From Arenibacter aquaticus (GTDB taxonomy: Bacteria; Bacteroidota; Bacteroidia; Flavobacteriales; Flavobacteriaceae), in contig NZ_RQPJ01000001.1 of the NCBI RefSeq assembly GCF_003957295.1, positions 744,001-808,000 of the forward strand: a stretch of 64,000 nucleotides of DNA, in the 5' to 3' direction. A program made the position numbers and the translations under genes. The number at the start of each line of letters is the position of its first letter. Positions within the stretch are counted from its first letter, which is position 1. Of this stretch, positions 9,496 to 25,836 are shown in pieces. A model generated the notes under the pieces. It saw only the letters and a program-made list of their open reading frames with translations, was not told the origin of the DNA and searched no databases.

Positions 9496-9576
9496 AGCAG
9501 CTACTATTCCGTATTTCTATTCATTCAACTCTTCCGTAAAAAGTCCCTAAAAAAAGGCCAATCTGAAGATATTGCT

Positions 9577-11024: not shown

Positions 11025-11044
11025 ATATTGATTTTAGATTTTGG

Positions 11045-11052
11045 CAAAGGTA
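11045..11052 (-). promoter_or_regulatory. Putative -7 promoter element for yicC-gmk-nadD
   Basis: On the minus strand the octamer reads TACCTTTG, an exact match to TAnnTTTG, about 20 bases before the yicC start. No clear -33 partner is visible. Confidence 0.45.
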
Positions 11053-11144
11053 AATAAAATTGAGGTTTGAATTCTTTTATAGCTTTAAACTACCAAAACT
11101 CTTATAAACAGCTCCTAATACATGTTATAAAAACCTCTTTAATG

Positions 11145-11510
11145 TCATAACTTGCCTTTATTTAAAGGCTTTCCATTTTTGTCGAAATGAATTTCCAATT
11201 GCCGTTCACACCAAAATATACCCAGAAATATGGCAACAACTAAGAAAAAAGTGGAAATACCCATAGACCAAAGGGGAGCAATGAAATGGGCAATTATACC
11301 AACTATAAAAGATGATACACCAACCCACAACATCATTTTGGCCCCAATAAGATTGCCAAAATCCCACGTTTCCTGGTTCCGCATACTTCTACGTGTTCTA
11401 TAGCCATAGAAAAGATTGATGCTCTTGGGTGGATGTATTTTATAGATCCAGGAAAGAATGGATAAAACCAGACCGGGTGCTGCTGCCGACAAGAAAAACG
11501 CCCACTCCAC
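11145..11510 (-). CDS. SdpI family membrane protein
   Basis: A 121-residue integral membrane protein with three hydrophobic segments (about 3-20, 55-77 and 82-102). The conserved SdpI signature FYGYRTRRSMRNQETWDFGN occurs at about 34-53. In Bacillus, SdpI gives immunity to the SdpC toxin and relays a signal, but many homologues have no known role. It starts with GTG at 11510, immediately abutting the stop codon of the upstream DUF1080 gene, so it is probably cotranscribed with the carbohydrate genes. The functional reason is not clear. Confidence 0.75.
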   Translation of the reverse strand: MEWAFFLSAAAPGLVLSILSWIYKIHPPKSINLFYGYRTRRSMRNQETWDFGNLIGAKMMLWVGVSSFIVGIIAHFIAPLWSMGISTFFLVVAIFLGIFWCERQLEIHFDKNGKPLNKGKL

Positions 11511-12341
11511 CTAAAGCTCCCTTACCCAGATATTCCTATAGCTCACCCTACTATTATCCCCGTGATCTTGAAGCTTTAAGGGGCCCTTACCATGGGCAGG
11601 ATTCTTTGGCCAGCCAATATAGGCCGTTGTGCCCTTAATTTCAACATGATCCTGTACCAGGATTCCATTGTGTAGGACCGTTACAGTCCCTGATTTTATC
11701 TTTTGTCCGGCCTCATTAAATTCCGGTGCGTGGTAAATAATATCATAACTGTTCCATTCACCTGTTGGCACGGAGGCCATAGCTAATGGTACGTGCTGCT
11801 TATAAATAGATGCCACCTGACCGTTAACATAGGTATCGTTATCATTGTTATCCAACACCTGCACCTCATACAATCCATTCAGGAATACCCCGCTATTACC
11901 GCGACTCTGGCCCTTGCCCTGTATCTCTTTGGGCGACTTCCACTCCAAATGCAGTTGTATGCTCCCAAAATTCTGAACGGTCTGTATATCTCCGGTTTTG
12001 TTACTTACGGTCATACTGCCATCATCATTAACAATCCATTTGGCTGCCGTACTGTCCCTAGAGCTAATCCAATTGTCCAAATTATCCCCGTTAAACAACA
12101 CAATGGCATCACTGGGCGGCTTACTAAAAGATACATTGGGTTTCACTACTGGGGGTACCGGTTTATAATATTCGGTTTCCTCGGGGGTGGTAGGTTCCTC
12201 TCCCGTATACTCTTCATGTACTATAACCCCATCGGCAGCAGCCGGTCCTGCGGTTGCTTCCAGAGGGTCTACGGCCACCTTTTCCTTACAGGCCAATGCC
12301 AAAATTAATAGGAAAGGGATATATCCTAGTTTCTTCACCAT
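11511..12341 (-). CDS. DUF1080 (3-keto-disaccharide hydrolase family) lipoprotein, copy 1
   Basis: A 276-residue lipoprotein; the signal peptide ends in the lipobox LALAC with Cys at about 18. An acidic linker (about 22-70) precedes one concanavalin-like domain with the family landmarks LFNGDNLDNW (about 81), RGNSGVFLNGLYEVQVLDN (about 147) and LKLQDHGDNSRVSYRNIW at the C-terminus. Family members include enzymes acting on 3-keto-glycosides. It lies 19 bases after the second DUF1080 gene in one operon with a TIM-barrel isomerase. Exposure to the periplasm or cell surface is inferred from lipidation. Confidence 0.87.
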   Translation of the reverse strand: MVKKLGYIPFLLILALACKEKVAVDPLEATAGPAAADGVIVHEEYTGEEPTTPEETEYYKPVPPVVKPNVSFSKPPSDAIVLFNGDNLDNWISSRDSTAAKWIVNDDGSMTVSNKTGDIQTVQNFGSIQLHLEWKSPKEIQGKGQSRGNSGVFLNGLYEVQVLDNNDNDTYVNGQVASIYKQHVPLAMASVPTGEWNSYDIIYHAPEFNEAGQKIKSGTVTVLHNGILVQDHVEIKGTTAYIGWPKNPAHGKGPLKLQDHGDNSRVSYRNIWVREL

Positions 12342-12360
12342 AGTATGATTATATAATGGA

Positions 12361-13143
12361 TCAATCCAATACTTTTATCTTAATATTCCTATAAGATACT
12401 ATATCGCCATGGTCTTGTAGGCCTAATTTTCCAGTTTTGTACTTACCAAAATGCTCAGAGCCCTTGAATTTGGATTTCGCTATCATAGCTTCCCATTCCT
12501 CACCATGTACGGGGAATGATGCCACTTCCGTTCCGTTCAGCACTACATTTCCCTGATTGGTATTGTGGTCAACGGTAATAACACAGGTATTCCATTCACC
12601 AACCGGCTTGGTAACGTCCTCACTCGGAGCAACCATGTCATAAAGGGCGCCCGCCTGATGGGTGGTTCCATTTTTGGCATCCGGATGTTTTTCATTGTCC
12701 AACACCTGGATTTCCGGTCCGGAATGGTAAGCCTCCTTAAGGCTTTCTATTTCCTTTACGCCCCAAAATATACCACTATTGCCACCCTCCGAGATCTTCC
12801 AATCTACAGATAGAACAAAATTGGTGAATTCCTCTTTGGTCACTAAGTTGTATTTCTCCCCCTTCTTACGTTCTTTGGGCGGGTAAAAAACCATAGCGCC
12901 ATCCTCTATTTTCCAAGCCTCTCCAACACCGTCTTCCTTGTAACGTTTCCAGGCATCAAAATTGGTCCCATCAAAAAGCACCTTCCATTCACCTTCTGCC
13001 GCGGCAGTTGGTGGTGGTGGTGGAGTTCCTTTTTCGGAATTTGCCATGGGATCAGAGTCTACCTCCATACTCTTTTTATCGGTTTTATCCTTACAGCCTA
13101 CGATCAGCATAGCGATCAAGGCCGTATAAAGTAAATTTTTCAT
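12361..13143 (-). CDS. DUF1080 (3-keto-disaccharide hydrolase family) lipoprotein, copy 2
   Basis: A 260-residue lipoprotein with lipobox MLIVGC (Cys at about 17) and a Pro-rich linker containing a run of five prolines. The DUF1080 domain starts at WKVLFDGTNFDAWKRY (about 53) and has GGNSGIFWGVKE, PEIQVLDNEKHPDAKNG and the terminal LGLQDHGDIVSYRNIKIK. It differs clearly from copy 1 (no long QGKGQSRG insertion, a larger HQAGALYDM loop), so the two are probably paralogues with different substrates rather than a recent duplication. It lies 26 bases behind the TIM-barrel gene. Confidence 0.88.
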   Translation of the reverse strand: MKNLLYTALIAMLIVGCKDKTDKKSMEVDSDPMANSEKGTPPPPPTAAAEGEWKVLFDGTNFDAWKRYKEDGVGEAWKIEDGAMVFYPPKERKKGEKYNLVTKEEFTNFVLSVDWKISEGGNSGIFWGVKEIESLKEAYHSGPEIQVLDNEKHPDAKNGTTHQAGALYDMVAPSEDVTKPVGEWNTCVITVDHNTNQGNVVLNGTEVASFPVHGEEWEAMIAKSKFKGSEHFGKYKTGKLGLQDHGDIVSYRNIKIKVLD

Positions 13144-13169
13144 TTTTCTTTGTTTATGATTTAACAGTA

Positions 13170-14222
13170 TTATAGCCCCAGTATCTTTTTCAATACGGTC
13201 TTATCTATTTCGGCACCGGCAAAATCATCAAAGGTTTTTTCCGTGGCTTCAATAATATGGTCCTGTATAAATTTGGCTCCTTCTCTAGCCCCTTGCTCCG
13301 GACTTTTTATGCAACACTCCCATTCCATAACAGCCCAAACATCACAACCATACTGGGTTAGCTTAGAGAAAATAGTCTTAAAGTCGATTTGTCCATCACC
13401 AAGGGAACGATATCTACCTGCGCGATCGCCCCAATCATTGTATCCTCCAAAGGCACCCTTTTTCCCGGTTGGATTAAATTCGGAATCCTTTACGTGGAAC
13501 GATTTAATAAATTCGTGATAGTGATCAATATAGGCAATATAATCCAATTGTTGCAGCACAAAATGGCTGGGGTCATACAAGATATTTACTCGCTTATGGT
13601 TACCGGTGGCGGCCAAAAAACGTTCAAAAGTATCGCCGTCGTGCAGGTCCTCGCCAGGATGTATTTCATAACATACATCCACACCTTCCTTATCATAATG
13701 GTTTAGGATGGGCAGCCATCTATTTGCCAATTCCTCAAATCCCATTTCTACCAATCCTGCAGGTCTCTGTGGCCAAGGGTGGGCGGTATGCCACAAAAGG
13801 GAACCGGAAAAGGTGGCGTGTGCGGACAAGCCAAGCCTTCTACTCGCCGTTGCCGCCTTTTTAACCACGTCTACCGCCCATTCTGTACGTGCCTTGGGAT
13901 TATTCTTTACCTTGTCAGGTGCAAAATTGTCGAACATTAGGTCATATGCGGGGTGCACCGCTACCAATTGCCCCTGAAGATGGGTAGACAATTCGGTAAT
14001 CTCCAGTCCGTAAGAATTAATTTTCCCTTTCAGTTCATCGCAATACGTCTGACTCTCTGCGGCTTTATCCAAGTCGATTAGAAAATCTACCCAAGTAGGT
14101 ATTTGTATTCCTTTGTATCCTAAATCGGATGCCCATTTACACAATCCATCCAACGAATTGAATGGTGCTTTTTCATCTACAAATTGCGCCAAAAATACGG
14201 CTGGCCCCTTAATTGTTTTCAT
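13170..14222 (-). CDS. Sugar phosphate isomerase/epimerase family TIM barrel, cytoplasmic
   Basis: A 350-residue xylose-isomerase-like (AP_endonuc_2 fold) TIM barrel without a signal peptide. Probable divalent-metal ligands are the Glu in VCYEIHPGEDLHDG (about 190), the Asp in NILYDPSHF (about 218), the His in SFHVKDSEF (about 243) and the Glu in VMEWEC (about 297). Such proteins isomerise or epimerise ketoses, and some act on 3-keto-sugars. It is first in a reverse-strand operon with two DUF1080 lipoproteins and SdpI, which points to intracellular processing of a released keto-sugar. Substrate unknown. Confidence 0.85.
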   Translation of the reverse strand: MKTIKGPAVFLAQFVDEKAPFNSLDGLCKWASDLGYKGIQIPTWVDFLIDLDKAAESQTYCDELKGKINSYGLEITELSTHLQGQLVAVHPAYDLMFDNFAPDKVKNNPKARTEWAVDVVKKAATASRRLGLSAHATFSGSLLWHTAHPWPQRPAGLVEMGFEELANRWLPILNHYDKEGVDVCYEIHPGEDLHDGDTFERFLAATGNHKRVNILYDPSHFVLQQLDYIAYIDHYHEFIKSFHVKDSEFNPTGKKGAFGGYNDWGDRAGRYRSLGDGQIDFKTIFSKLTQYGCDVWAVMEWECCIKSPEQGAREGAKFIQDHIIEATEKTFDDFAGAEIDKTVLKKILGL

Positions 14223-14858
14223 TTATTTCTGTTTATTATTTTAAATTGTTCTCCGGACAAAGGCAACACCCCAAAGGAAGTTCCCTTACACCTATCTAAA
14301 TAGTTTTAGTTGTTTCCCAAAAAGTCAAATTACTCATCCTTTAAAGCTCCTTACCTCTTTAAATACCCCATTTTATAGAGACAGCACCCCATTTGCACAG
14401 GGCTTTATAATAATTTTGTACCAGCCCCACTACCTGCTGTATTGGATTTGATATAATTAATAATTAAACCCTATATTTAGACTGTAATTTTGAATTACAC
14501 ACTTGTTTTAATGTGAAGTTATAAATATAGGAATTACAATAGAATTATCAGAATAATAAGCCATGAATCAATCTGCCAAAATGTAAGGAATTTAGATCAA
14601 ACCATTAATCCTTAAAATATATTGCCCCCCAAAATCGTTATAACATTTATTAGACTTATAGAGCACAGTATATCGATTAAAGACAGTTAATTCCATGTTG
14701 TTAAAAAACCATATAAACCCAAGCCTTCATAAAGCCCCAATTCACGGACATGGGGTCTTGTCATTACTTTACACGAATGTCTTGTTCACCCAGCGTCCTA
14801 ACCCAAAAAAAACAGCCAAATATGCTGTAGAAACAATAAAATCAAGCAAACTTTCTTA
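14223..14858. other. 636-bp AT-rich divergent intergenic region
   Basis: It separates the reverse TIM-barrel operon from the forward ASCH gene and must hold both promoters. A 54-codon ORF (14695-14859) ends in a TAATG overlap with the ASCH gene, but its composition and peptide look non-coding. No clear operator repeat or hairpin is seen. Confidence 0.4.
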
Positions 14859-15320
14859 ATGGAAAACAGCACAGCCAGAAATATGTGGGGCGATTTTTTA
14901 GATGCCCACTTAGAATACGCCTTTGTGGAAGCTCCCAAGGTGATGCATTTTTTTGACAATGAAAAGGACGCCAATCACTCCTTGGACCTAGTAATTAACA
15001 AAACCAAAAAAGCTATGTCCCAGTCCCTTCTGGGTCTTCAGAACAGAAACGAACCTTTACCAAAAATTGGATCGTTCATTGTCCTAACAGATTGGGAGGG
15101 CACCGCCAAATGCATTGTAAAAACCACTTCGGTAAAGCTAAAGCCCTTGTTTAGTATTGATGGGGATTATGCCCAATTGGAAGGGGAGGGCGACAAGAGC
15201 CTAGACCAGTGGAAAAATATATATTGGAATTACTTTGCCCGTGAACTAGCTACTTTTAAGCGCGTTCCCAAGGAGAGTATGATTGTGGTCTGTGTAACTT
15301 TTGAAAAAGTATACGGCTAA
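14859..15320 (+). CDS. ASCH domain protein
   Basis: A 153-residue cytoplasmic protein matching the ASCH fold of the PUA-like superfamily: an N-terminal W-x-x-FL start, a central basic KTKKAMSQSLLG segment where related proteins have GxKxATxSLL, PKIGSFIVLTDWEGTAKCIV, and a C-terminal DQWKNIYWNYFARE. ASCH proteins bind RNA or act as small amidohydrolases on modified nucleosides; the role here is not known. It is a single gene between two oppositely oriented operons, ended by the hairpin at 15346-15368. Confidence 0.75.
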   Translation: MENSTARNMWGDFLDAHLEYAFVEAPKVMHFFDNEKDANHSLDLVINKTKKAMSQSLLGLQNRNEPLPKIGSFIVLTDWEGTAKCIVKTTSVKLKPLFSIDGDYAQLEGEGDKSLDQWKNIYWNYFARELATFKRVPKESMIVVCVTFEKVYG

Positions 15321-15345
15321 GCCATAGCTACCTCAGAAAACTAAG

Positions 15346-15372
15346 AAGGGCCACAATTTGTGGCCCTTTTCT
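15346..15372. terminator. Bidirectional terminator
   Basis: A self-complementary GC-rich stem (15346-15356 with 15358-15368, AAGGGCCACA core) is followed by TTTTC on the plus strand and preceded by AGAA. It separates the ASCH gene from the 3' end of the reverse Gfo/Idh/MocA operon. Confidence 0.75.
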
Positions 15373-15390
15373 ATTTTGGAAGATGAATTT

Positions 15391-16527
15391 CTATTTTAAA
15401 TCCACCCAAACATTTCCTTTTTTATTGGATTCAACAGAACTCTCAATAAAGTCGAGTCCACGTACCCCGTCCATCATAGTAGGGAATTCGCCATCATTGT
15501 ATTCCTCTCCCCTAATGGCTCTGGCAACCCCAAGGTAGATGTTGGCCATGGAGTCAAAAATACCCTCTGGGTGTCCTGGAGGCAATTTGGTACCATCCAA
15601 AGACAAATCCGAGTTATAGGCATGACCAGGCTTGTAAACCTGAGCTGGCTTGTCATCGCTAAGTACATAGAGGTAGTTGGGGTTTTCCTGTTCCCAACGC
15701 AATCCAGCCTTTTCACCATAGATGGCAATGCTTAAACCGTTTTCCTCACCTGTAGCGACCTGACTTGCCCTTACCAATCCCTTAACGTGTTTGTCCATAC
15801 GGATCAATACCGTACCATCAACATCCATCTGGTTATCCTCGTACAGATAGTTGAAATCGGCCAATATAGATTTGATCTTTAATCCGGTGGTATATTCTAT
15901 CATATTAAATGCATGCACCCCAATATCGCCCATACAAGAGCTAATTCCGGCTTTTTTGGGATCCAATCTCCAAACGGTAGAACGTTTGGCCTTGTCATGG
16001 ATTATGGTATTGATCCATCCTTGATAGTATTGCGCATCTACCTTGTGTATTTTACCCAATGCCCCGGCCTTGATCATCTCTCTCATTTGCCTGACCATTG
16101 GATAACCCGTATAAGTGTGCGTTACGGCAAAAACGGTCTTGGCCTTTTCCAAGGTGTCCTGCAATATTACAGCTTCTTCATAGGTGGTGGTCATAGGTTT
16201 TTCACAGATAACGTGAAATCCGTTTTCCAACAGTTTCTTCGCCATTGGAAAATGCAAAAAATTAGGTGTAAGGACTGAACACACCTGTATCCGCTCTTCT
16301 TTTGGAAGTTTTAATTCCTCTTCCACCAAAGTGTCAAAGTCCTTATAAATTCTGTTGGTTGGGATATCTATCTCCTTTGCAAAGGCTACATTGGCCTCAA
16401 AATCAGGGTTAAAGACAGCCCCTACAATTTCATAGTTATCATTGATCTGGGATGCCACCCTGTGCAATACCCCAATAAGGGAGTCTCCTCCACCCCCTAA
16501 AATTCCTAATTTAATTTTTTTACCCAT
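15391..16527 (-). CDS. Gfo/Idh/MocA family oxidoreductase
   Basis: A 378-residue NAD(P)-dependent sugar oxidoreductase. The N-terminal Rossmann motif is LGILGGGGDSLIGVLHRVAS (about 7-26), and the family's EKP catalytic motif appears as HVICEKPMTTTYEEA near 107. SSCMGDIGVHAFNMIEY near 198 is the conserved Asp-x-x-x-His region of the C-terminal domain. No signal peptide, so cytoplasmic. It is last of a four-gene reverse operon (lipoprotein TIM barrel, DinB, permease, oxidoreductase) with gaps of 13-16 bases. It probably oxidises or reduces a keto-sugar imported by the adjacent permease; substrate inferred only from context. Confidence 0.9.
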   Translation of the reverse strand: MGKKIKLGILGGGGDSLIGVLHRVASQINDNYEIVGAVFNPDFEANVAFAKEIDIPTNRIYKDFDTLVEEELKLPKEERIQVCSVLTPNFLHFPMAKKLLENGFHVICEKPMTTTYEEAVILQDTLEKAKTVFAVTHTYTGYPMVRQMREMIKAGALGKIHKVDAQYYQGWINTIIHDKAKRSTVWRLDPKKAGISSCMGDIGVHAFNMIEYTTGLKIKSILADFNYLYEDNQMDVDGTVLIRMDKHVKGLVRASQVATGEENGLSIAIYGEKAGLRWEQENPNYLYVLSDDKPAQVYKPGHAYNSDLSLDGTKLPPGHPEGIFDSMANIYLGVARAIRGEEYNDGEFPTMMDGVRGLDFIESSVESNKKGNVWVDLK

Positions 16528-16540
16528 AATATATTTATTC

Positions 16541-17773
16541 CTAATTACTTTTATATTCTACTTGAACGTTTTTAAAAAACAAGGTAAACAAGGCCATGAC
16601 CCCTAGTGCAAAAATAGCTGGAAAACTCCAAATATCAACCCAGCTATGTTCCCCTTCACGCACCAAATAACTATCCGTAATCTCACCGGCCACCCAAAAT
16701 CCTATCAACATACCTACCCCGTAGGTTGCCAGGGTAATTAATCCCTGAGCCGCACTTTTATATTTAGCACCTGCTTTGGAATCGGTATAAATTTGCCCGG
16801 ACACAAAGAAAAAGTCATAACAGATTCCGTGCAAGGCAATCCCTATAATCAGCATAAATGCCTTGTCGTCCGCATTTCCATATGCAAAAAGCAAATATCG
16901 TACTGTCCATGCCAACATTCCGGCAATTAGGGTTCTCTTAAAGCCAAATCTCTTAAAAAAAAAGGGCAATAGCAACAGAAATAACACTTCGGATCCCTGA
17001 CCAATGGTCATTATACCCGTAGGGTTGTCCATCCCTATTTCTGACAAAAACGGATTGGCATTCTGATAATAAAAAGCCAAGGGTATACAGATAAGAATTG
17101 ATGAAATAAAGAAAACGAAAAAATTCCTATCCCGTAAAAGCTTTAAGGCATCCAATCCCAAAATACTGGAAACGGACACTTTTTCATCCTTCCCTACCTT
17201 TGGCGGTGTTTTGGGAAGGAAAAAACTAAAAACACCCAATATAGCCGAAGCAATGGCCACCATTAAAAAGGTATTTTTTAATAAACCTTCCTGCCTTGAC
17301 ACCTCTGAGTCCCAAAGAAACACATAGCTAATGATCAGCCCAGCCACAATCCAACCAATAGTTCCAAAAACCCTTACAAAAGAAAATTCCTTGGCCGGAT
17401 TTTTCATTTGACTGAAGGCTATGGAATTCACCAGCGCCAAGGTGGGCATGTACAGTATCATATACCCCAGCACATACGGATAAAAACCAGCGAAGTCTAT
17501 CGCAGCGTACATCTGGTACATGAGCAAGGCGCCAATAAGGTGCAAAACCCCCAAGATGCGCTCTGCGTTAAAAAACCGGTCCGCTATCAATCCTATTATA
17601 AAAGGGGCTATAATGGCCCCCCAGGATTGGGTAGAATACGCCATGGCCGTTTCCGCACCACTGGCTTTTAGATTATGGCCCAAAAACGTACCCAAGGTAA
17701 CAAACCAACCTCCCCAAATAAAAAATTCGAGAAACATCATCAAGGAGAGTTGAAGTTTGGTGTTTACCTTCAC
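16541..17773 (-). CDS. MFS permease of the nucleoside:H+ symporter (NHS) type
   Basis: A 410-residue inner-membrane carrier with about 12 hydrophobic segments. The N-terminal LMMFLEFFIWGGWFVTLGTF and SQSWGAIIAPFIIGLIADRF are typical of NHS-like transporters of Bacteroidota, which often sit beside sugar dehydrogenases and isomerases rather than nucleoside genes. The only start giving the full first helix is GTG at 17773. It lies 13 bases before the Gfo/Idh/MocA gene. I infer uptake of a mono- or keto-sugar; nucleoside transport is the alternative. Confidence 0.85.
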   Translation of the reverse strand: MKVNTKLQLSLMMFLEFFIWGGWFVTLGTFLGHNLKASGAETAMAYSTQSWGAIIAPFIIGLIADRFFNAERILGVLHLIGALLMYQMYAAIDFAGFYPYVLGYMILYMPTLALVNSIAFSQMKNPAKEFSFVRVFGTIGWIVAGLIISYVFLWDSEVSRQEGLLKNTFLMVAIASAILGVFSFFLPKTPPKVGKDEKVSVSSILGLDALKLLRDRNFFVFFISSILICIPLAFYYQNANPFLSEIGMDNPTGIMTIGQGSEVLFLLLLPFFFKRFGFKRTLIAGMLAWTVRYLLFAYGNADDKAFMLIIGIALHGICYDFFFVSGQIYTDSKAGAKYKSAAQGLITLATYGVGMLIGFWVAGEITDSYLVREGEHSWVDIWSFPAIFALGVMALFTLFFKNVQVEYKSN

Positions 17774-17788
17774 GGCTGGCGGTTCTAT

Positions 17789-18232
17789 TTATCTTTTATA
17801 AAAGGTATAATCCAACATAGGCGGCTCAATGGCATTGTTTCTTAGATCGACCGAAATTTGCCCCCTGTGATGGGTTGAATGATTTATGATATGGAAAAGC
17901 ATATCGGTTATGGTGTTGGAAAACAACCTTCCCTTGGTATTTTCGTAATCCAAACGCGCATCAAAATTATCTGCATTGGTAATAATCTCAAAGGAGCTTC
18001 TTTGATTTTCATAATGCACCTCTCCCCAGTCCTTTAAAGGGTGAATCTGAAAAACGCCGTATTCTATCTCTTTATCAAGAATACGGGCGTTCCATATATG
18101 ATGGGCGTTTAAAATATGACTAAATAGCGTAATGGTCCTGTCCGGAACATGCTCCAGCTTATGACACTCTTCAATCAATTTTTTATTGCAATAAAAGTTG
18201 TAATCGAAAAGTTGATTAAAAAAAGCCTTCAT
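17789..18232 (-). CDS. DinB family protein
   Basis: A 147-residue four-helix-bundle protein of the DinB/YfiT-like superfamily. The three probable metal-binding His residues are in LFSHILNAHHIWNARIL (about 37-53) and the C-terminal IINHSTHHRGQISVDLRN (about 113-130). Members include bacillithiol- or mycothiol-dependent S-transferases and metal-dependent hydrolases. It sits between a lipoprotein TIM barrel and a permease with gaps of 16 and 15 bases, so it belongs to the carbohydrate operon although no sugar role is known. The organism also encodes a bacilliredoxin (40480-40890). Confidence 0.82.
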   Translation of the reverse strand: MKAFFNQLFDYNFYCNKKLIEECHKLEHVPDRTITLFSHILNAHHIWNARILDKEIEYGVFQIHPLKDWGEVHYENQRSSFEIITNADNFDARLDYENTKGRLFSNTITDMLFHIINHSTHHRGQISVDLRNNAIEPPMLDYTFYKR

Positions 18233-18248
18233 AGCAAATCCCGTACAA

Positions 18249-19244
18249 TTAGTTTATTTCCTTAGCTGCCTTTAACAAGAGATTTTTGGTGGCAAGAATC
18301 CCTGCTTCCTCTCCTAGCTCGTGCCCTTCATATTCCACACCAATATAGCCGGTATACCCAGCGTCCTTCACTATCTTTAGTATTCTTGGATAATCCAATT
18401 TTGTTTCGTAGCCCTGGGCATCAAAATTGTAGGATTTGGCACTTACCGCCAAGGCATGGGGCATCAGCTCACTAATACCTTTATATATATCGTATTCATT
18501 GGCACATCCATCCTTACTTCTTTCTATACAGAAATTTCCAAAATCGGGCAAGGTACCGCAATTCTTCATATTCACCTTGGTCATAACCTCTGCCAGCATA
18601 GCGGCGTTGGAAGACAATCCGCCGTGGTTTTCAACCAAGACCTCTATATTCTTTTCCTTGGCATAGGTGGCCAATTGGGTTAAGCCATCAACAGAACTGG
18701 CCACCCATTCTTCGGGCACTTTGCTTCCGGAGAGGTTTACCCTAATGGCATGGCATCCCATGGCAGCAGCAGCATCTACCCACTTATAATGGTTTTCTAC
18801 CGCTTCTTTTCTTTTTGCATCATCGGTTGTAGCAAGATCACCTTGACCATCAATCATGATCAATACATTTTCCATACCGTGCTTCTTGCTTTCCGCATTA
18901 CATTTCTCCACAAAGGCAGCCATTGCTTCCTCGGAGAAATTGGCAGCCCTTAATTCGTCATAATACAAGCCACTCACATATTCCAAACCGGAAAAACCCC
19001 ATTCTTTGGCTTTCTCGGCAAAGGTATAGGGGTCCACTCCCTCTTCCCTTACCATTCTATGCATAGACCATTGCGCCAGGGACAATTTAAAAAAGGGCTC
19101 CTCGGATTTTACGGCCACTTCCGTAACCTCCTTGTTGTCCGACTTATCCTTGGGAGCTTCCTTACAGGAAAAAACACCCAATGCCAATACAACCAAACCT
19201 ACCTTTAATCCCGTTAATTTTAAATTTTTACCTTTCATTTTCAT
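18249..19244 (-). CDS. Sugar phosphate isomerase/epimerase family TIM barrel, lipoprotein
   Basis: A 331-residue xylose-isomerase-like barrel with a lipoprotein signal (lipobox ALGVFSC, Cys at about 27) and a charged linker, so it acts outside the cytoplasm. Likely metal ligands are the Glu in IEVLVENHGG (about 206), the Asp in GTLPDFGNFC (about 237) and the Glu in GYIGVEYEGHE (about 302). A lipidated form of this fold is unusual for a phosphate-sugar enzyme and suggests that the real substrate is a free or keto-sugar in the periplasm. It is the first gene of the four-gene reverse operon and lies divergent to the GMC dehydrogenase. Confidence 0.85.
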   Translation of the reverse strand: MKMKGKNLKLTGLKVGLVVLALGVFSCKEAPKDKSDNKEVTEVAVKSEEPFFKLSLAQWSMHRMVREEGVDPYTFAEKAKEWGFSGLEYVSGLYYDELRAANFSEEAMAAFVEKCNAESKKHGMENVLIMIDGQGDLATTDDAKRKEAVENHYKWVDAAAAMGCHAIRVNLSGSKVPEEWVASSVDGLTQLATYAKEKNIEVLVENHGGLSSNAAMLAEVMTKVNMKNCGTLPDFGNFCIERSKDGCANEYDIYKGISELMPHALAVSAKSYNFDAQGYETKLDYPRILKIVKDAGYTGYIGVEYEGHELGEEAGILATKNLLLKAAKEIN

Positions 19245-19374
19245 TAAATATTATTAAACCAATTAATTACCAACAACTAAAACGTTATAGTGCTGAAGTA
19301 TTAGGAAATATAAGGTTTAAATGTAGAAAATTAATTTTATATTTAATAAATTTATTAAATAAACAATTTTATAA

Positions 19375-21087
19375 ATGAGCAAGTTTTATTACAACGAAGA
19401 GCAGGATTCTTATGATGCAATTGTCGTAGGTACCGGAATTAGTGGGGGGTGGGCAGCCAAGGAATTGTGCGAAAAAGGATTAAAAACCTTGGTTTTGGAA
19501 CGCGGAAGGATGGTTAAGCACATTGAGGACTATGAGACGGCCAACATGGACCCGTGGGACTTTCCCAATGCCGGTAAGCCCACCAGGGAGGATATTGAAA
19601 AACAGCCCAAACAGAATAGAACGGGCTATACTACGAACGCTGCCAGTAAAATGTGGTTTGTCAACGATTTAAAGCACCCATACAATGAAATACGAAGGTT
19701 TGATTGGATGAGGGGATACCACTTAGGTGGGCGCTCCCTGCAATGGGGGCGACAAAGCTATAGATGGAGCGATATTGACTTCACGGCCAACAAAAGGGAT
19801 GGCATTGCAGTGGATTGGCCCGTTCGCTATAAAGATATTGCACCATGGTATTCCAAGGTAGAGAACTACATTGGCGTTAGTGGGGAGGCACTTAACCTAC
19901 CGCAGTTGCCGGACAGTGATTTTTTGCCGGCCATGGAAATGAACTGTGTGGAGGAACATTTTAAAAATAAAGTAACAGAGGGGTTTGACGGACGTGCCGT
20001 TACCATTGGTAGGGTTGCACATATAACTGGGACCAAAAATTTTGACGGACGTACCAAATGTCAGTACAGAAATCGCTGTATCAGAGGATGTCCTTTCGGC
20101 GGGTACTTTAGTAGTTTGTCCTCTACCCTGCCCGCGGCAGAAGCCACAGGCAATATGACCTTACGGCCAGACTCCATTGTTCACGAAGTGATATACGACC
20201 CGGACACAAAAAAGGCTACCGGGGTAAAGGTAATTGATAGGGTAACCAAGGAAACCCACGAATTTAAAGCCAAGGTTATCTTCTTATGTGCTTCGGCCAT
20301 AGCTTCGACCGCTATTTTAATGCAATCCAAATCCGATCGTTTCCCCAATGGTATGGGTAATGACTCCGATCAATTGGGCCGCAATATAATGGACCATCAT
20401 TTAGGAGTGGGTGCCTCTGGTAAATTTGATGGCTTTGAAGACAAATATTACAAAGGAAGACGCCCCAACGGGATATATATTCCAAGGTTTAGAAACCTAG
20501 GAGGGGATACGGACAGAAAGGATTACCTGCGTGGATTCGGATATCAAGGAGGAGCCAGCAGAGGGAATTGGGAAGAGACCGTTGCCGAGCTCTCTTACGG
20601 AAAAGACCTAAAAGACAGTATACTTCAACCAGGTGGATGGAGAATGGGAATTGGCGGCTTTGGCGAGGTACTCCCCTATGAAGACAATAGAATGACTTTG
20701 GATTACGACAAATTGGACGATTGGGGGCTGCCTACGGTAACTTTTGATGCCGATTTACAGGAAAACGAGTTCAAAATGCGTAAAGACATGCAGGAATCTG
20801 CTGTAGAAATGCTGGAAAAAGCAGGATTTAGGGATGTTAAGGGACACGACGGACCTACTGGTCTAGGTTTGGGCATCCACGAAATGGGTACTGCCAGAAT
20901 GGGGCGCAACAGAAAGACCTCTGTCCTTAACGGGAACAACCAATTGCACGATGTGCCCAACGTTTATGTAACAGATGGAGCCTTTATGACCTCAGCCAGT
21001 TGCGTAAACCCATCACTCACTTATATGGCATTCACTGCCAGGGCCGCAGACCACGCGGTAAAAGAACTTAAAAAAGGAAATATATAA
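19375..21087 (+). CDS. GMC family FAD-dependent sugar dehydrogenase, large subunit
   Basis: A 570-residue flavoprotein of the glucoside 3-dehydrogenase/gluconate 2-dehydrogenase alpha type. The FAD-binding motif VVGTGISGGWAAKELCEKG is at 17-35. Catalytic candidates are His502 in GIHEMGTARMG and Asn545 in CVNPSLTYMA. Cys229, Cys235 and Cys239 are spaced C-x5-C-x3-C (TKCQYRNRCIRGC), the spacing of the 3Fe-4S site of bacterial FAD-glucose dehydrogenase. It has no signal peptide of its own; export as a hitch-hiker with the Tat-signal small subunit is likely. Stop and next start overlap (TAATG). Confidence 0.9.
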   Translation: MSKFYYNEEQDSYDAIVVGTGISGGWAAKELCEKGLKTLVLERGRMVKHIEDYETANMDPWDFPNAGKPTREDIEKQPKQNRTGYTTNAASKMWFVNDLKHPYNEIRRFDWMRGYHLGGRSLQWGRQSYRWSDIDFTANKRDGIAVDWPVRYKDIAPWYSKVENYIGVSGEALNLPQLPDSDFLPAMEMNCVEEHFKNKVTEGFDGRAVTIGRVAHITGTKNFDGRTKCQYRNRCIRGCPFGGYFSSLSSTLPAAEATGNMTLRPDSIVHEVIYDPDTKKATGVKVIDRVTKETHEFKAKVIFLCASAIASTAILMQSKSDRFPNGMGNDSDQLGRNIMDHHLGVGASGKFDGFEDKYYKGRRPNGIYIPRFRNLGGDTDRKDYLRGFGYQGGASRGNWEETVAELSYGKDLKDSILQPGGWRMGIGGFGEVLPYEDNRMTLDYDKLDDWGLPTVTFDADLQENEFKMRKDMQESAVEMLEKAGFRDVKGHDGPTGLGLGIHEMGTARMGRNRKTSVLNGNNQLHDVPNVYVTDGAFMTSASCVNPSLTYMAFTARAADHAVKELKKGNI

Positions 21088-21734
21088 TGGACAGAAGAAA
21101 AGCACTTAAAAGCATGGGCTTGGCACTGGGATATACGGTAGCCACCCCAACACTGATCAGCATAGTACAAAGTTGTAAGCAGGATGCGGCCATTACATGG
21201 ACACCAGATTTTTTATCCCCAACAGAAGGTTCAATGCTTACCCAGCTGGTAGATATAATTCTTCCAAAAACCGACACCCCATCTGCTTCCGAGGTACAGG
21301 TACACATCTTTATAGACCGTTTTGCCGATCAAGTAATGAAAAAAGAACAGCAGGACCTTTTTAAAATGACCATGGGTAAATTTCTGGACAAGGCCCTACA
21401 GGATTCCGGCAAAAAAGAGATTGCAGATCTTGGCCCGGAACATCTGGAACCGGTACTGTCTGCCGCCCTAAAAATCTCTAAAGAAGATGAAGCCAAAAAA
21501 TTTAAGGTCATCAATGCCTATACCGAATCCGTAAAAGCGGGGGAAACGGCAAGCCTTGATGATGAGGTATCCAGATTTGCCTTCGCCAACAACCTAAGAG
21601 GGCTGACCATTTTAGCATATAAGTCTTCTGAATATGTAGGCGAAAATGTATTGTCTTACCTACCGGTGCCAGGCGAATACATTGCATGTGGCGACCTTCA
21701 GGAATTGACCGGAGGCAAGGCGTGGTCACTATAA
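21087..21734 (+). CDS. Gluconate 2-dehydrogenase subunit 3 family protein (dehydrogenase small subunit)
   Basis: A 215-residue partner of the GMC subunit. A twin-arginine leader starts MDRRKALKSMGLALGY, and a possible lipobox IVQSC lies at about 30, so it is exported folded through Tat and may be lipid-anchored. The mature part begins with the family landmark LSPTEGSMLTQLVDIILPKT. Such small subunits chaperone and carry the flavoprotein to the periplasm. It overlaps the GMC gene by one base. No cytochrome c subunit follows, so the electron acceptor must be encoded elsewhere. Confidence 0.87.
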   Translation: MDRRKALKSMGLALGYTVATPTLISIVQSCKQDAAITWTPDFLSPTEGSMLTQLVDIILPKTDTPSASEVQVHIFIDRFADQVMKKEQQDLFKMTMGKFLDKALQDSGKKEIADLGPEHLEPVLSAALKISKEDEAKKFKVINAYTESVKAGETASLDDEVSRFAFANNLRGLTILAYKSSEYVGENVLSYLPVPGEYIACGDLQELTGGKAWSL

Positions 21735-21842
21735 ATTACAACAAAGGTAAAATTGACTAAAAAGCCAGAACAACTGGATAACCATTGTTATTTAGTTGTT
21801 TTGGCGTTATTTAATAATAGAATTCCAACCATATACTAAAAA

Positions 21843-22757
21843 ATGAAAAGAAGAGATTTTATTCAAAAAACCGCCTTGGGAAGTAGCGCCGTAACCTTAG
21901 GTGGCAGCTTAGCCTACGGAGCCCAGCCCAATTTAGAGGCGAAACATTCTTTTAACTTGAAATATGCCCCACATTTTGGCATGTTCAAAAACCTGGCAGG
22001 AAACGACTTAATTGACCAGATCAACTTTATGGCCGACCAAGGGTTTACGGCTTTTGAAGACAATGGCATGATGAAAAGGGACGTGGCCACCCAAACCAAA
22101 ATTGGAGAAGCCTTGGCCAAGCATAATATGACCATGGGCGTCTTTGTAATAGACAAAGGCGGTAATATGGCCAACACCTTAGCAGCAGGTAAACAAGAAT
22201 ATATAGATATATTTCTGGACGGCTGTAGAAGGGCCGTGGAAGTGGCCAAACGAGTCAATGCCAAATGGATGACCGTAGTGCCGGGCGGATTTGAAAGAAA
22301 GCTACCAATAGGCGTTCAGGATGGCAATGTTATTGAAGCGCTAAAAAGAGGCGCCGAGATTTTGGAACCCCACGGCTTAACAATGGTCCTTGAGCCTTTA
22401 TCGGATTCCCCAGATCTCTATTTGCAGAATTCAGACCAAACCTATATGATCTGTAAAGCGGTAGGCAGTCCTTCCTGTAAAATATTGTTCGACATCTACC
22501 ATATGCAAAAAACCGAAGGGCACCTAATACACAATATGGACCTAACGTGGGATGAAATAGACTACATACAAATAGGGGACAATCCAGGCAGAAAAGAACC
22601 CACCACTGGAGAGATCAATTATAAAAATGTTTTCAAATATATCCATGAAAAAGGATTTAAGGGCGTATTGGGTATGGAACACGGCAATTCCAAACCTAAC
22701 AAAGAAGGAGAGTTGGCAGTTATTAATGCGTATAAGAGCGTAGACAACTTCCTATAA
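21843..22757 (+). CDS. Hydroxypyruvate-isomerase-like TIM barrel, Tat-exported
   Basis: A 304-residue xylose-isomerase-like barrel with a Tat leader (MKRRDFIQKTALGSSAVTLG) ending around residue 27. Metal-ligand candidates are the Glu in TMVLEPLSDSPD (about 183), the Asp in ILFDIYHMQKTEGHL (about 218), the Asp in IQIGDNPGRKE (about 244) and the Glu in VLGMEHGNSKP (about 281). This resembles hydroxypyruvate isomerases, but periplasmic location argues against a role in glyoxylate metabolism. It lies 108 bases behind the GMC small subunit, probably in the same transcript. It is the third TIM barrel of this kind within 10 kb. Confidence 0.85.
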   Translation: MKRRDFIQKTALGSSAVTLGGSLAYGAQPNLEAKHSFNLKYAPHFGMFKNLAGNDLIDQINFMADQGFTAFEDNGMMKRDVATQTKIGEALAKHNMTMGVFVIDKGGNMANTLAAGKQEYIDIFLDGCRRAVEVAKRVNAKWMTVVPGGFERKLPIGVQDGNVIEALKRGAEILEPHGLTMVLEPLSDSPDLYLQNSDQTYMICKAVGSPSCKILFDIYHMQKTEGHLIHNMDLTWDEIDYIQIGDNPGRKEPTTGEINYKNVFKYIHEKGFKGVLGMEHGNSKPNKEGELAVINAYKSVDNFL

Positions 22758-22804
22758 CCCTACAAAAAAAAGTTAAAAATCAACGATTTAACGTTGTATT
22801 TAGA

Positions 22805-22849
22805 AAGTTTCCATTTTGTTCATTCGTCAAAGCAATGAAATGGAAACTT
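22805..22849. terminator. 12-bp stem hairpin after the dehydrogenase operon
   Basis: AAGTTTCCATTT (22805-22816) is the exact reverse complement of 22838-22849, with a 21-base loop and ATTTTTATG after the stem. It may end the GMC operon. It also covers the start codon of the tiny ORF at 22840, so it could instead control that ORF or argue against it. Confidence 0.45.
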
Positions 22850-22926
22850 ATTTTTATGTTATAGGCCTATACTGTATACTCTTCATAATAGGCAGGTTGC
22901 TATGCCATCACCATTTTAAAAAGTGA
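22840..22926 (+). CDS. Possible 28-residue single-pass membrane peptide
   Basis: The frame METYFYVIGLYCILFIIG... ends with RLLCHHHFKK, giving one hydrophobic helix and a basic, His-rich tail. This is the profile of a real membrane micropeptide. Coding status is uncertain: the start lies inside a hairpin, there is no clear ribosome-binding site and no homologue is known to me. Confidence 0.25.
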   Translation: METYFYVIGLYCILFIIGRLLCHHHFKK

Positions 22927-23021
22927 CAATGGTTGAATGGACTGTATTCTTATGGCCATAGTCCAGATTCCCTTTATGCCCGTATATAAAATATAAAGAA
23001 CATTGAGCTTAGGGTATAAAA

Positions 23022-23108
23022 ATGGACAATCATATTACCATATTGACGATTTACGGCATTGCCATTATTTGTGCCCTGGTATTAAAACCCTACATATTTA
23101 ACAGATAG
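23022..23108 (+). CDS. Possible 28-residue single-pass membrane peptide
   Basis: The frame MDNHITILTIYGIAIICALV continues to KPYIFNR and stops. It has one hydrophobic helix of about 18 residues flanked by polar ends. It has the same length as the ORF at 22840 and sits 58 bases before the strong terminator at 23166. It could be an uncalled small protein; evidence is limited to composition and position. Confidence 0.3.
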   Translation: MDNHITILTIYGIAIICALVLKPYIFNR

Positions 23109-23165
23109 GCACCCAATTAACCAATATAATAGGGTAGAAAGCCCCTAAAACACCTATACACCAAA

Positions 23166-23207
23166 AACAACAGACCCCCCAAGGAATTCCTTGGGGGGTC
23201 TGTTGTT
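23166..23207. terminator. Strong bidirectional terminator
   Basis: A 42-base perfect palindrome (arms 23166-23186 and 23187-23207, core ACAGACCCCCCAAGGAA). It separates the forward region from the reverse nrdA gene, whose stop lies 28 bases away. Confidence 0.85.
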
Positions 23208-23235
23208 ATAACAAATAACCACTCCTATAGAGCGT

Positions 23236-25704
23236 TTAGGAGCCGCACATTAAACAATCATCATCTGCCTGACCCTCTTTAGCTCGGGCTATTAATTCCT
23301 TCATCTCAGCCGCTGTCATTGGCTGCACATCCACATCCTTATTATCAGCAGCAACTGCCTCTACCTTTATTGACTTGGCCACCTCAGGTGTACCCAATCC
23401 AATTTCCACTTCCTTGGCAACAGGCTCATCCTTCTTGCTGTTGTCCAGGGTAAATTTAATGGCGTCTGCAGCAGCCTTGGTCCTTAAATAATACATACCG
23501 GTCTTAAGTCCGCTTTTCCATGCGTAAAAGTGCATGGAAGTTAGTTTGGAGTAATTGGCATTCTCCATAAACAAGTTAAGGGACTGACTTTGATCAATGA
23601 AATACCCTCGTTGCCTGGACATATCTATAATATCCTTCATACTAAGTTCCCAAACCGTTTTGTACAATTCCTTGATCTCGTCCGGGATATTCTGAATATG
23701 TTGTACAGACCCATTGGCCCTCATTAATTCCTGTTTCATATTCTCATTCCACAGTCCTAGGTTAACCAAATCTTCCAACAAATGTTTGTTTACCACAATA
23801 AACTCCCCAGATAGCACCCTACGGGTATAAATATTGGAGGTATAGGGTTCAAAACATTCGTTGTTCCCCAGGATTTGTGATGTGGAGGCGGTTGGCATTG
23901 GAGCTACCAATAAGGAATTACGAACTCCATTCTTTTTAACCTCTTTGCGCAATTTACCCCAGTCCCATCTTCCGGACAATTCCTCATCCTTAACTCCCCA
24001 AAGATTGTGCTGGAACTCTCCTTTTGATATAGGTGAACCTTCATAGGTAGAGTAAACGCCTTCCTCTTTGGCCATCTCCATAGAAGCGGTAACGGCAGCA
24101 TAATACAAAGTCTCAAATATCTCTTGGTTAAGCGCCTTTGCCGCATCGCTGGTAAAAGGCATTCTCAACATTATAAAGGCATCTGCAAGGCCCTGCACTC
24201 CCAATCCAATTGGTCTATGTCGCATATTGGAATTTTCGGCCTCTTTAATGGGGTAATAATTACGATCTATTACCCTGTTCAAGTTTTTGGTCACACGCTT
24301 GGTAACCTTGAACAATTCCTTATGATCAAATTCCCCGTTCTTTATGAACATTGGCAATGCAATGGATGCTAAATTACATACCGCCACCTCATCGGGGGAG
24401 GTATATTCCAATATCTCTGTACAAAGGTTGGAAGAGCGAATAGTCCCCAAATTCTTTTGGTTACTCTTTCTATTGGCCGCATCCTTGTACAACATATAAG
24501 GTGTGCCGGTCTCTATTTGGGACTCTAAAATCTTCTCCCATAAATCCCGTGCCTTAACCGTCTTACGCCCTCTGTTTTCTGCCTCATATTTTGTATATAA
24601 TTTTTCAAAATCCTCACTGTGCTGCGTAAAAAGATCAGGACATTCATTAGGACACATCAGTGTCCAATTTTCGTTAGACTCCACCCTTTTCATAAACAAA
24701 TCGGGTACCCACATAGCATAGAAGAGGTCCCTGGCCCTCATTTCCTCTTTCCCGTGGTTTTTCTTTAAATCCAAAAATTCAAAGATATCGGCATGCCATG
24801 GCTCCACGTAGATGGCAAAACTACCCTTACGCTTTCCACCTCCCTGATCTACGTAACGCGCCGTGTCATTAAAAACCTGTAGCATGGGCACAATACCGTT
24901 GGAGGTTCCGTTGGTACCGGCGATATAGGAGCCTGTAGCCCTAACATTATGAATGGAAAGACCTATCCCCCCGGCAGATTGGGAAATCTTGGCCGTTTGC
25001 TTCAATGTATCGTATATACCATCTATACTATCGTCTTTCATGGCCAATAAAAAACAGGACGACATCTGGGGTTTTGGCGTACCAGAATTGAACAGTGTAG
25101 GCGTAGCGTGTGTAAAATATTTTTTAGACATCAACTCATAGGTTTCCAAGGCGGCATCCAAATCGTTCAAATGAATCCCTACGGAAACTCTCATAAGCAT
25201 ATGCTGTGGGCGTTCGGCAATTTTCCCATTAAGTTTTAGAAGATAAGAACGCTCCAATGTTTTAAACCCAAAATAATCGTAGCCAAAATCCCGGTTATAA
25301 ATAATAGTCGAATCCAATTTTACGGCGTTCTCCGAAATCACCTTATATACCTCATCGGACAGTAAAGGTGCTTTTTTGCCAGTCCTTGGGTTTACGTATT
25401 CATAGAGATCCTTCATGGTTTCCGAAAAGGATTTCTTGGTGTTCTTATGTAGGTTGGAAACAGAAATACGTGCCGCCAATTTTGCATAGTCCGGGTGTGT
25501 AGTGGTCATAGTAGCTGCAATCTCTGCTGCCAAATTATCCAATTCAGACGTGGTCACTCCGTCATAAAGACCCTCAATTACCCGCATGGCAACCTTTAAT
25601 GGGTCAACCAAATCGTTAAGTCCATAACATAATTTTCGTACTCTGGCCGTGATCTTGTCGAACATCATCAGCTCTTTTCTGCCGTCTCTTTTTACTACAT
25701 ACAT
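23236..25704 (-). CDS. nrdA: Ribonucleoside-diphosphate reductase, alpha subunit (class Ia)
   Basis: Catalytic subunit that reduces ribonucleotides to deoxyribonucleotides. The 822-residue protein has an N-terminal ATP cone (about 1-90), the active-site Cys in [13 protein letters not shown] (about 217), [20 protein letters not shown] around 425, and the C-terminal redox pair in DDCLMCGS. An unusual linker of about 60 residues (Glu/Lys/Val/Ala-rich) separates the barrel from the redox tail. It follows nrdB by 132 bases on the same strand. Confidence 0.97.
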
Positions 25705-25836
25705 GTCGCTACAATTTTAAAAATGATACATAAGTTTGGGTTAGGGGGCGATATGTTAAAATTTTTAACATATCAAATTCATTGCTTAAAAATCCCCTTA
25801 TAACCCAAAGGGGATTTAAACCAAAGGCTCTATAGG

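Follow-up and report, generated by a model that had tools for sequence, protein, structure and literature searches.

A probable split-compartment, non-hydrolytic glycoside catabolic locus in Arenibacter aquaticus

Introduction

How could glycosides be broken down by a gene cluster that carries none of the usual tools for the task? The question is raised by positions 11511-22757 of a 64,000-nucleotide stretch of the Arenibacter aquaticus genome (contig NZ_RQPJ01000001.1, positions 744,001 to 808,000; the whole stretch is referred to as the window). The locus holds genes for two DUF1080 lipoproteins (KetB and KetC), a GMC flavoenzyme (GMC) with a Gluconate_2-dh3 small subunit (Gdh3), a Gfo/Idh/MocA oxidoreductase (Gfo), a nucleoside:H+ symporter-family (NHS) permease (Perm) and three TIM barrels (TimD, TimH and TimK). 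As had been pointed out in a preliminary description made from the DNA letters, no SusC/SusD or glycosidase family was found with Pfam profiles among its 12 genes.

The analysis indicates (probability roughly 0.84) a non-hydrolytic pathway of glycoside catabolism that is split between compartments and consists of C3 oxidation, beta-elimination, hydration and reduction. GMC, exported with its small subunit that bears a twin-arginine translocation (Tat) signal, would oxidize C3 of a glycoside sugar, with electrons probably passing via a [3Fe-4S] cluster to a cytochrome c whose gene lies elsewhere. The DUF1080 lipoproteins would split the resulting 3-keto-glycoside by beta-elimination into an aglycone or sugar and 2-hydroxy-3-keto-glucal, and the permease would import the glucal or the 3-keto sugar. 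In the cytoplasm TimD would hydrate 2-hydroxy-3-keto-glucal to 3-keto-glucose, which Gfo with NAD(P)H would reduce to glucose or an epimer.

Results

Hydration and cleavage

TimD matched PDB entry 8ro4 over its full length (positions 1-350 of 350; 542.9 bits, E 3.6e-162), and the PDB matches that followed scored 154.3 and then 45.5 bits. 8ro4 was named 2-hydroxy-3-keto-glucal hydratase by its depositors. As this name contains the intermediate expected from beta-elimination of a 3-keto-glycoside, the match was the most informative result obtained, and it places the locus in a known non-hydrolytic pathway. It speaks for homology rather than activity and makes TimD a probable 2-hydroxy-3-keto-glucal hydratase, the pathway step best backed by sequence. 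8ro4 is probably the Agrobacterium enzyme AtHYD (WP_038490972.1), which is given as a putative hydratase within the GlycDH operon (PMC10628242). TimD was also 65-69% identical to four proteobacterial hydratases.

Both KetB and KetC scored above the PF06439 cut-off of 26.8 bits, so that two members of the 3-keto-glycoside lyase/hydrolase family are present, a statement on family and not on activity. KetC matched 14 solved DUF1080 sequences, with 4jqt as the best (139.2 bits); 8rr2, 8tda, 8v31 and 9fbe were matched at E 5e-35 to 5e-34. The deposited name of 8rr2 (E 5.3e-35) is 3-keto-disaccharide hydrolase domain protein. KetB, which is 30% identical to KetC, matched 4qhz best (254.7 bits). All 15 aligned DUF1080 proteins share the lipoprotein cysteine. 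KetC is named here a probable 3-keto-glycoside lyase. Cleavage by DUF1080 is probably a beta-elimination and not a simple hydrolysis because TimD most likely hydrates an elimination product. Six minimal loci described below, which keep a DUF1080 gene and lack matches to TimH or TimK, also argue for DUF1080 rather than an exported barrel as the eliminase.

Direct hydrolysis of the 3-keto-glycoside by the DUF1080 proteins, with TimD acting mainly as an epimerase or isomerase on the freed 3-keto sugar, would agree with the Pfam family name, 3-keto-disaccharide hydrolase, and with the treatment of DUF1080 as a hydrolase in PMC9007349. We regard it as unlikely, as TimD is a full-length relative of a named 2-hydroxy-3-keto-glucal hydratase and as hydratase and DUF1080 genes are both retained in the minimal five-gene clusters, which is most sensible if an elimination product forms.

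Oxidation

The best solved relatives of GMC were the large subunit of fructose dehydrogenase (141.7 bits) and a bacterial glucose dehydrogenase dependent on flavin adenine dinucleotide (FAD; 127.8 bits), and GMC lay nearest to the respiratory FAD dehydrogenases that possess a small subunit. Cys229-X5-Cys235-X3-Cys239 aligned with cysteines of fructose dehydrogenase and, like His502 and Asn545, was unchanged in all 13 sequences aligned. The cysteines are presumably the ligands of a [3Fe-4S] cluster, and His502/Asn545 we take to be the catalytic pair. GMC and Gluconate_2-dh3, the parts expected of a C3 dehydrogenase with partner subunit, are present, regiospecificity being a property that is not readable from sequence, and GMC is a probable glycoside 3-dehydrogenase catalytic subunit. 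Gdh3 probably carries it out of the cell, judging from relatives. GMC relatives (E up to 1e-100) were found in 29 of the 60 genomes of a draw of relatives, including all 18 of the genus, A. aquaticus itself counted. In the open-licence library searched no article was found that ties glucoside 3-dehydrogenase to a small subunit, 3-ketoglucose to GMC, or flavobacterial 3-keto chemistry to GMC/gluconate 2-dehydrogenase.

Among the 17 genus-relative loci fetched, 9 (L053-L055, L057-L062) have a second GMC gene, 66-67% identical, beside the ASCH-domain gene. A relic of it was sought by tblastn in 14223-14900 of the window and none was recognizable (best E 0.11). Elsewhere in the A. aquaticus genome (G000), a second GMC (76% identical) occurs with Gdh3 and a PF01261 barrel with a twin-arginine (RR) start at G000:C9:513300-532000 (L047). 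Its surroundings, which include an alpha-L-fucosidase, a sulfatase and a SusC/SusD-type pair, suggest that a sulfated fucose glycan is processed there with an oxidative step. At G000:C10:84000-89600 (L258), distant GMC and Gluconate_2-dh3 genes occur as two tandem pairs, apparently of a separate subfamily.

Reduction and import

The solved relatives of Gfo are named just oxidoreductase (3v5n, 294.7 bits). Gfo was 36-41% identical to the Gfo proteins beside the four proteobacterial hydratases and reached no equivalog model; it remained far under the cut-offs of NCBIfam NF058561 and NF058563 (BT2158/BT2159; 34.3 of 750 and 19.7 of 650 bits) and far below that of the levoglucosan dehydrogenase model. 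From its family and its neighbours it is a probable 3-keto-glucose reductase, and the permease is a probable importer of the keto sugar. In one locus (L040) the permease position is occupied by an MFS_1 carrier.

An inositol or polyol oxidation locus, in which GMC would act on a cyclitol, TimD would be an IolE-like inosose dehydratase and Gfo an inositol dehydrogenase, has in its favour weak matches to IolE (58.5 bits) and IolG (47.6 bits). These scores are far under the curated cut-offs of 290 and 355, TimD scored 542.9 bits on 8ro4 against 45.5 on the IolE structure 3cny, and the DUF1080 proteins would be left without a role. Inositol catabolism was therefore dropped as very improbable, 8ro4 being by far the better fit.

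Conservation of the neighbourhood in Flavobacteriaceae

Gene neighbourhoods were compared in the best 80 of at least 590 TimD relatives from a genome-collection scan, their titles naming Flavobacteriaceae or other Bacteroidota (L097 is labelled Algicola); the 80 loci are close relatives and not independent events. Open reading frames (ORFs) were called mechanically (at least 80 residues, start and stop inside the stretch), which misses genes cut at locus ends. They were named by best blastp match to window proteins at E 1e-6 in the 80 loci and 1e-8 in the 17 genus loci, and by profile matches at E 1e-10 in the phylum draw described below.

All five core genes occurred together in 64 of the 80 loci. 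Within 10 kb of TimD, Gfo was found in 76 loci, GMC in 74, KetC in 67, TimH and Gdh3 in 65 each, Perm in 60, gmk and yicC in 59 each, KetB in 50, ASCH in 41, DinB in 35, TimK in 28 (four of these at 24-33% identity) and SdpI in 7, and some DUF1080 gene was present in 78. With the 21 loci under 20.5 kb set aside, the counts in the remaining 59 were Gfo 58, GMC 57, small subunit 53, TimH 52, KetC 48, NHS permease 46, KetB 43, ASCH 32, DinB 29, TimK 25 and SdpI 5. The order KetB-KetC-TimD-ASCH-Gfo-Perm-TimH-GMC-Gdh3-TimK, beside yicC, was kept in 17 of 17 fetched genus-relative loci, with nrdA following in 14 and DinB absent from 5. DinB, SdpI and the Tat-exported barrel TimK are optional members. 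The preliminary description had named a lack of co-occurrence elsewhere as an outcome that would count against it, and no such outcome was found.

Six minimal loci (L120, L122, L123, L126, L134 and L136) were searched over the whole stretch by tblastn with nine proteins. GMC, Gdh3, Gfo, TimD and a DUF1080 gene of the KetC type were matched and TimH, TimK and Perm were not. The six loci span 11 to 21 kb (shortest: L123 and L134), and all come from metagenome or uncultured records. The five of nine proteins matched are what a pathway that oxidizes, eliminates, hydrates and reduces would need.

The A. aquaticus genome (5.23 Mb, 24 contigs) holds 24 PF06439 domains and four Gluconate_2-dh3 matches. 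At this density about 0.05 PF06439 domains are expected per 11.2 kb and two are seen at the locus; this excess and the recurrence of the gene set across genera and other phyla place the grouping beyond chance. That unrelated carbohydrate genes became neighbours by accident, as the several optional members (DinB, TimK and SdpI at the counts above) might suggest, can be dismissed in view of the neighbourhood comparison, with the core five together in most loci, an identical order in every fetched genus relative and the same gene kinds recurring in a gammaproteobacterium (Pseudoalteromonas).

In three loci of other genera (L040, L041 and L044) an AraC-type regulator, called by Pfam in L040 and by a similar N-terminus in L041 and L044, lies beside the GMC genes; it is absent from the window locus.

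Distribution beyond the family

In a phylum draw of 247 genomes, TimD (E up to 1e-100) was found in 49 genomes at 51 places. Neighbourhoods were counted at 49 of these (the A. aquaticus genome and G018 left out), 40 outside the family and 9 inside. Gfo accompanied TimD in 43 of the 49, the permease in 34, DUF1080 in 27, GMC in 26, Gdh3 in 23, a TimK-like barrel in 22 and TimH in 5; at the 40 places outside the family the counts were Gfo 34, permease 25, DUF1080 19, GMC 17, Gdh3 14, TimK-like 14 and TimH 0. Some outside-family matches were weak, namely those to TimK at 62-83 bits, perhaps another barrel subfamily, one to GMC at 88 bits and two to KetB at 46 and 52 bits. By these counts TimD and Gfo are the most closely linked pair, and TimH turned up in the home family only.

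TimD relatives were also present in 352 records of a plasmid collection, and four of the 30 listed were examined. A Pseudoalteromonas plasmid carries Gfo, hydratase, MFS carrier, DUF1080 (38% identical to KetC), GMC, Gdh3 and barrel in one row. In Croceicoccus a barrel with DUF6379 and a glycoside hydrolase family 3 gene accompany Gfo, hydratase, Gdh3 and a GMC 48% identical to that of the window, and in Rhizobium the hydratase lies with two Gfo genes, an OGE-sized barrel and an ABC transporter, with no GMC annotated within 9 kb. The small subunits on these records gave no blastp match to window proteins at E 1e-5.

Electron acceptor

An ORF under 400 residues with a CXXCH motif was found in 11 of the 80 TimD loci, in 10 of them beside Gdh3 or GMC. 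In the phylum draw a CXXCH ORF under 400 residues was present in 18 of 40 outside-family and 4 of 9 family loci; of 12 such outside-family loci inspected, 11 had it beside TimD (124-186 residues) and one had a 311-residue ORF elsewhere. The cytochrome type of outside-family locus L208 gave partial matches only in the A. aquaticus genome, in large frames. The type linked to the locus in L120 has a homologue there on another contig, at G000:C5:555746-556222 (L257:9747-10226), which is 58% identical over its full length and belongs to PF00034. It is one candidate acceptor among several because the genome holds 15 PF13442 matches, 12 of them above cut-off. A cytochrome c of Rhizobium radiobacter is reported to accept electrons from glucoside 3-dehydrogenase (PMC9915066).

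The L120-type cytochrome lies beside Gdh3-GMC in L120 and in other uncultured flavobacteria. The A. aquaticus homologue adjoins an alpha/beta hydrolase near a DUF1080/Gfo cluster, and homologues of this hydrolase are found near TimK in L140 and L148.

Exported barrels

The top PDB match of the TimH profile was 4ovx, an uncharacterized Planctomyces limnophilus protein (369 bits). C-glycoside deglycosidase barrels made up 8 of 13 matched sequences, and Art22, two D-tagatose 3-epimerase sequences and IolI were matched as well. In HMMER alignments, from which the residue correspondence was taken, Glu205, His207, Asp234 and Glu304 were invariant in 43 of 43 TimH proteins; the usual strand-7 metal-ligand histidine is replaced by Ser268, also invariant. 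The Glu-Asp-His-Glu manganese site with catalytic histidine of the C-glycoside deglycosidases was thus not found in full in TimH (residue roles as given in PMC10628242). The lipoprotein cysteine was conserved in at least 90% of the 43 proteins. A fold search with the AlphaFold 2 model (predicted local distance difference test, pLDDT, 90.8) placed 4ovx first (Z 41.5), then the isomerase Art22 (Z 29.1), with C-glycoside deglycosidases (Z 24.8-26.3) tied with epimerases and isomerases, and does not separate eliminases from epimerases.

TimK resembles hydroxypyruvate isomerases, with 3ngf and 1k77 as PDB matches and also as fold matches of its model (Z 28.0 and 27.4; pLDDT 83.6). The fold is near the 3-keto-glucoside 4-epimerase YcjR (Z 25.7), tied with tagatose 3-epimerases. 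In 25 sequences Glu184, Asp217, Glu279 and the twin arginine were invariant and Gln243 nearly so. As a working hypothesis, TimK would be an epimerase acting on 3-keto sugars. Both barrels are taken as auxiliary and may widen the substrate range through elimination of other anomers or epimerization of 3-keto sugars.

Layout of the locus

The features are listed in Table 1. All families reported in the preliminary description, including its three xylose-isomerase-like barrels (three PF01261 proteins), were recovered where it had placed them, and the profile checks that it proposed (PF06439, PF13618, PF00732/PF05199 and PF01261) all gave matches; the one gene that it overlooked was that of the ASCH protein. 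Signal peptides were judged by eye. KetB, KetC and TimH begin with lipoprotein signals, Gdh3 (MDRRKAL) and TimK (MKRRDF) with twin-arginine signals, and none was seen in GMC, TimD or Gfo, which leaves one barrel cytoplasmic, one lipidated and one Tat-exported.

Table 1. Genes and hairpin of the locus, with positions in the window.
Feature	Position	Strand	Basis
SdpI-like membrane protein; rarely linked, abuts KetB, just outside 11511-22757	11145-11510	-	PF13630
KetB, second DUF1080 lipoprotein, separate subfamily	11511-12341	-	PF06439, 129.5 bits
KetC, DUF1080/3keto-disac_hyd lipoprotein, probable 3-keto-glycoside lyase	12361-13143	-	PF06439, 167.8 bits
TimD, cytoplasmic TIM barrel, probable 2-hydroxy-3-keto-glucal hydratase	13170-14222	-	PF01261; PDB 8ro4 match
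ASCH-domain gene, optional, between two minus-strand runs	14859-15320	+	PF04266
Terminator-like hairpin, readable on either strand, in the ASCH (+)/Gfo (-) gap	15344-15370	.	12 pairs on +, 10 on -
Gfo, cytoplasmic Gfo/Idh/MocA oxidoreductase, probable 3-keto-glucose reductase	15391-16527	-	PF01408/PF22725
Perm, NHS-family permease, probable keto-sugar importer	16541-17773	-	PF03825, 383 bits
DinB-family gene, optional, 15-16 bases from neighbours	17789-18232	-	PF05163
TimH, lipidated TIM barrel, exported and auxiliary; candidate eliminase or epimerase for 3-keto-glycosides	18249-19244	-	PF01261
GMC flavoenzyme, probable glycoside 3-dehydrogenase catalytic subunit	19375-21087	+	PF00732/PF05199
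Gdh3, Gluconate_2-dh3 small subunit, RR start, lipobox-like Cys	21087-21734	+	PF13618, 96.6 bits
TimK, Tat-exported TIM barrel, optional; hydroxypyruvate-isomerase/epimerase-like	21843-22757	+	PF01261

Genes on the minus strand fall into two runs (TimH-DinB-Perm-Gfo and TimD-KetC-KetB-SdpI) with intergenic gaps of 0-26 bases within each, held apart by ASCH and the hairpin at 15344-15370. GMC and TimH are divergent, with 130 bases between them, and the GMC and Gdh3 genes overlap by one base. A second terminator-like hairpin (21764-21805) lies in the Gdh3/TimK gap. Hairpins are consensus matches only, 18 terminator-like sites having been found against 13.4 +/- 4.2 in shuffles; promoter-like sites showed no excess (34 against 28.9 +/- 6.1). 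An Rfam search of 8900-27000 gave no match.

Discussion

The core of the preliminary description, C3 oxidation outside the cytoplasm followed by uptake and cytoplasmic reduction, is well supported by homology and by conservation of the neighbourhood. Its assignment of cleavage to DUF1080 is likewise backed by homology and linkage, but the reaction is more likely beta-elimination than simple hydrolysis, given the match of TimD to 8ro4. Where it had proposed reduction or isomerization in the cytoplasm, reduction by Gfo finds support, whereas the cytoplasmic barrel is most likely a hydratase. The exported barrels and permease, which it had built into the pathway, are linked in many loci but not in all, the six minimal clusters having no matches to them in the fetched stretch. 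Finally, the idea of an oxidative alternative to hydrolysis is borne out, but the locus belongs to an oxidative glycoside-breaking route that is already described (PMC9007349, PMC10628242).

Several observations weigh against the proposed pathway. GMC families oxidize other positions and polyols too. None of the ten locus proteins scanned reached the cut-off of an NCBIfam model, and the top solved relative of KetB, 4qhz, has the name 'putative glycosyl hydrolase'. No ORF of at least 60 residues with a CXXCH motif, as expected of a cytochrome c, was found in the window. The six minimal loci have no permease match, which leaves the import step without explanation there. Outside the family a GMC match was absent from 23 of 40 loci and a DUF1080 match from 21 of 40 in the fetched stretch (24 and 23 if matches below 100 bits are discarded), and as more than half of these loci are without GMC in the stretch, a fixed unit is argued against. 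Among the plasmids, Azospirillum has a TimD-type hydratase with Gfo, XylA (xylose isomerase) and an ABC transporter and no GMC annotated within 9 kb; the Pseudoalteromonas GMC is 31% identical to that of the window, and neither its small subunit nor its barrel gave a match at the threshold stated above. In Pedobacter, 0 of 10 DUF1080 genes had a lactose phenotype, for which the authors suggest redundancy (PMC9007349).

Among known systems, the lacABC clusters of Caulobacter and others, which contain DUF1080, a transporter, two epimerases and a reductase and show fitness phenotypes on lactose, resemble the locus in grouping a dehydrogenase with these gene kinds and in the periplasmic oxidation and cleavage proposed for them (Price et al. 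2022, PMC9007349). Differences are that no cytochrome c is encoded at the locus and that the gene order is another one. The cytochrome of LacABC is LacB.

Oxidation by GlycDH and beta-elimination were demonstrated biochemically (Bitter et al. 2023, PMC10628242). The Agrobacterium tumefaciens GlycDH/TAT-OGE-HYD-Gfo operon, with its eliminase, putative hydratase and Gfo, resembles the locus in combining a flavoenzyme and a Tat protein with these last two (PMC10628242). TimD shares 65% identity with the Rhizobium copy of the hydratase. The OGE barrel serves as eliminase in Agrobacterium (PMC10628242), whereas at the locus this part likely falls to the DUF1080 lipoproteins; the OGE-sized barrel of Rhizobium gave no blastp match to TimH or TimK at E 1e-5.

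The barrel subunits of the C-glycoside deglycosidases (DgpB-C, CarB-C, DfgA-B and CGD) are mostly the nearest characterized profile relatives of TimH; unlike in those enzymes, no gene for a second subunit (DUF6379) is present among the locus genes. A later paper on the Agrobacterium pathway is reportedly that of Kastner et al. 2024, and a BT2157/BT2158/BT2159 3-keto pathway of Bacteroides thetaiotaomicron is said to be described by Nasseri et al. 2024. The latter is like the locus in its DUF1080 enzyme on 3-keto-disaccharides. Its dehydrogenases are BT2158/BT2159, whereas oxidation at the locus is assigned to GMC, Gfo having missed both models. BT2158 is a periplasmic glycoside 3-dehydrogenase required for disaccharides (PMC11300592).

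The locus contributes a set-up in which oxidation by GMC is combined with DUF1080 lipoproteins and a full-length hydratase, together with a fixed place beside gmk/yicC in most family loci, a minimal five-gene form and the missing cytochrome. Many flavobacterial chromosomes, those of uncultured and metagenome records among them, thereby prove to hold, as a standing component, a recently recognized oxidative route to glycosidic-bond cleavage. This route may be overlooked where carbohydrate use is predicted solely from glycoside hydrolases and SusC/D. With the minimal clusters the sequence of steps can be put to a direct test. Questions raised by the locus concern the identity of the imported intermediate, the electron acceptor where no cytochrome is encoded nearby and the roles of the exported barrels. 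A bolder and tentative proposal, to which we give a fairly low probability, sees in the locus a salvage pathway of marine Flavobacteriaceae that is old, fixed in the chromosome and independent of SusCD. In it 2-hydroxy-3-keto-glucal, an activated and unsaturated intermediate, would cross the inner membrane via the NHS permease, and TimH would form, together with its structural homologue 4ovx, a new class of exported enzymes acting on 3-keto-glycosides as eliminase or epimerase, their metal site being non-canonical (serine for the strand-7 histidine).

Other features of the window

The Pfam scan beyond the locus covered 15 other ORFs of the window. A hairpin of 19 pairs with a 4-base loop (23166-23207) lies between TimK and a minus-strand ribonucleotide reductase-like gene (23236-25704), downstream of the latter. 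Past nrdAB, about 5 kb from the cluster, 27490-31542 encodes a hybrid two-component regulator (propeller, kinase, receiver and AraC output); regulators of this type often govern sugar loci, and its link to the cluster is one of proximity alone. A GH27-type alpha-galactosidase family gene (59506-60873) lies next to a GDSL esterase (region 59506-62557).

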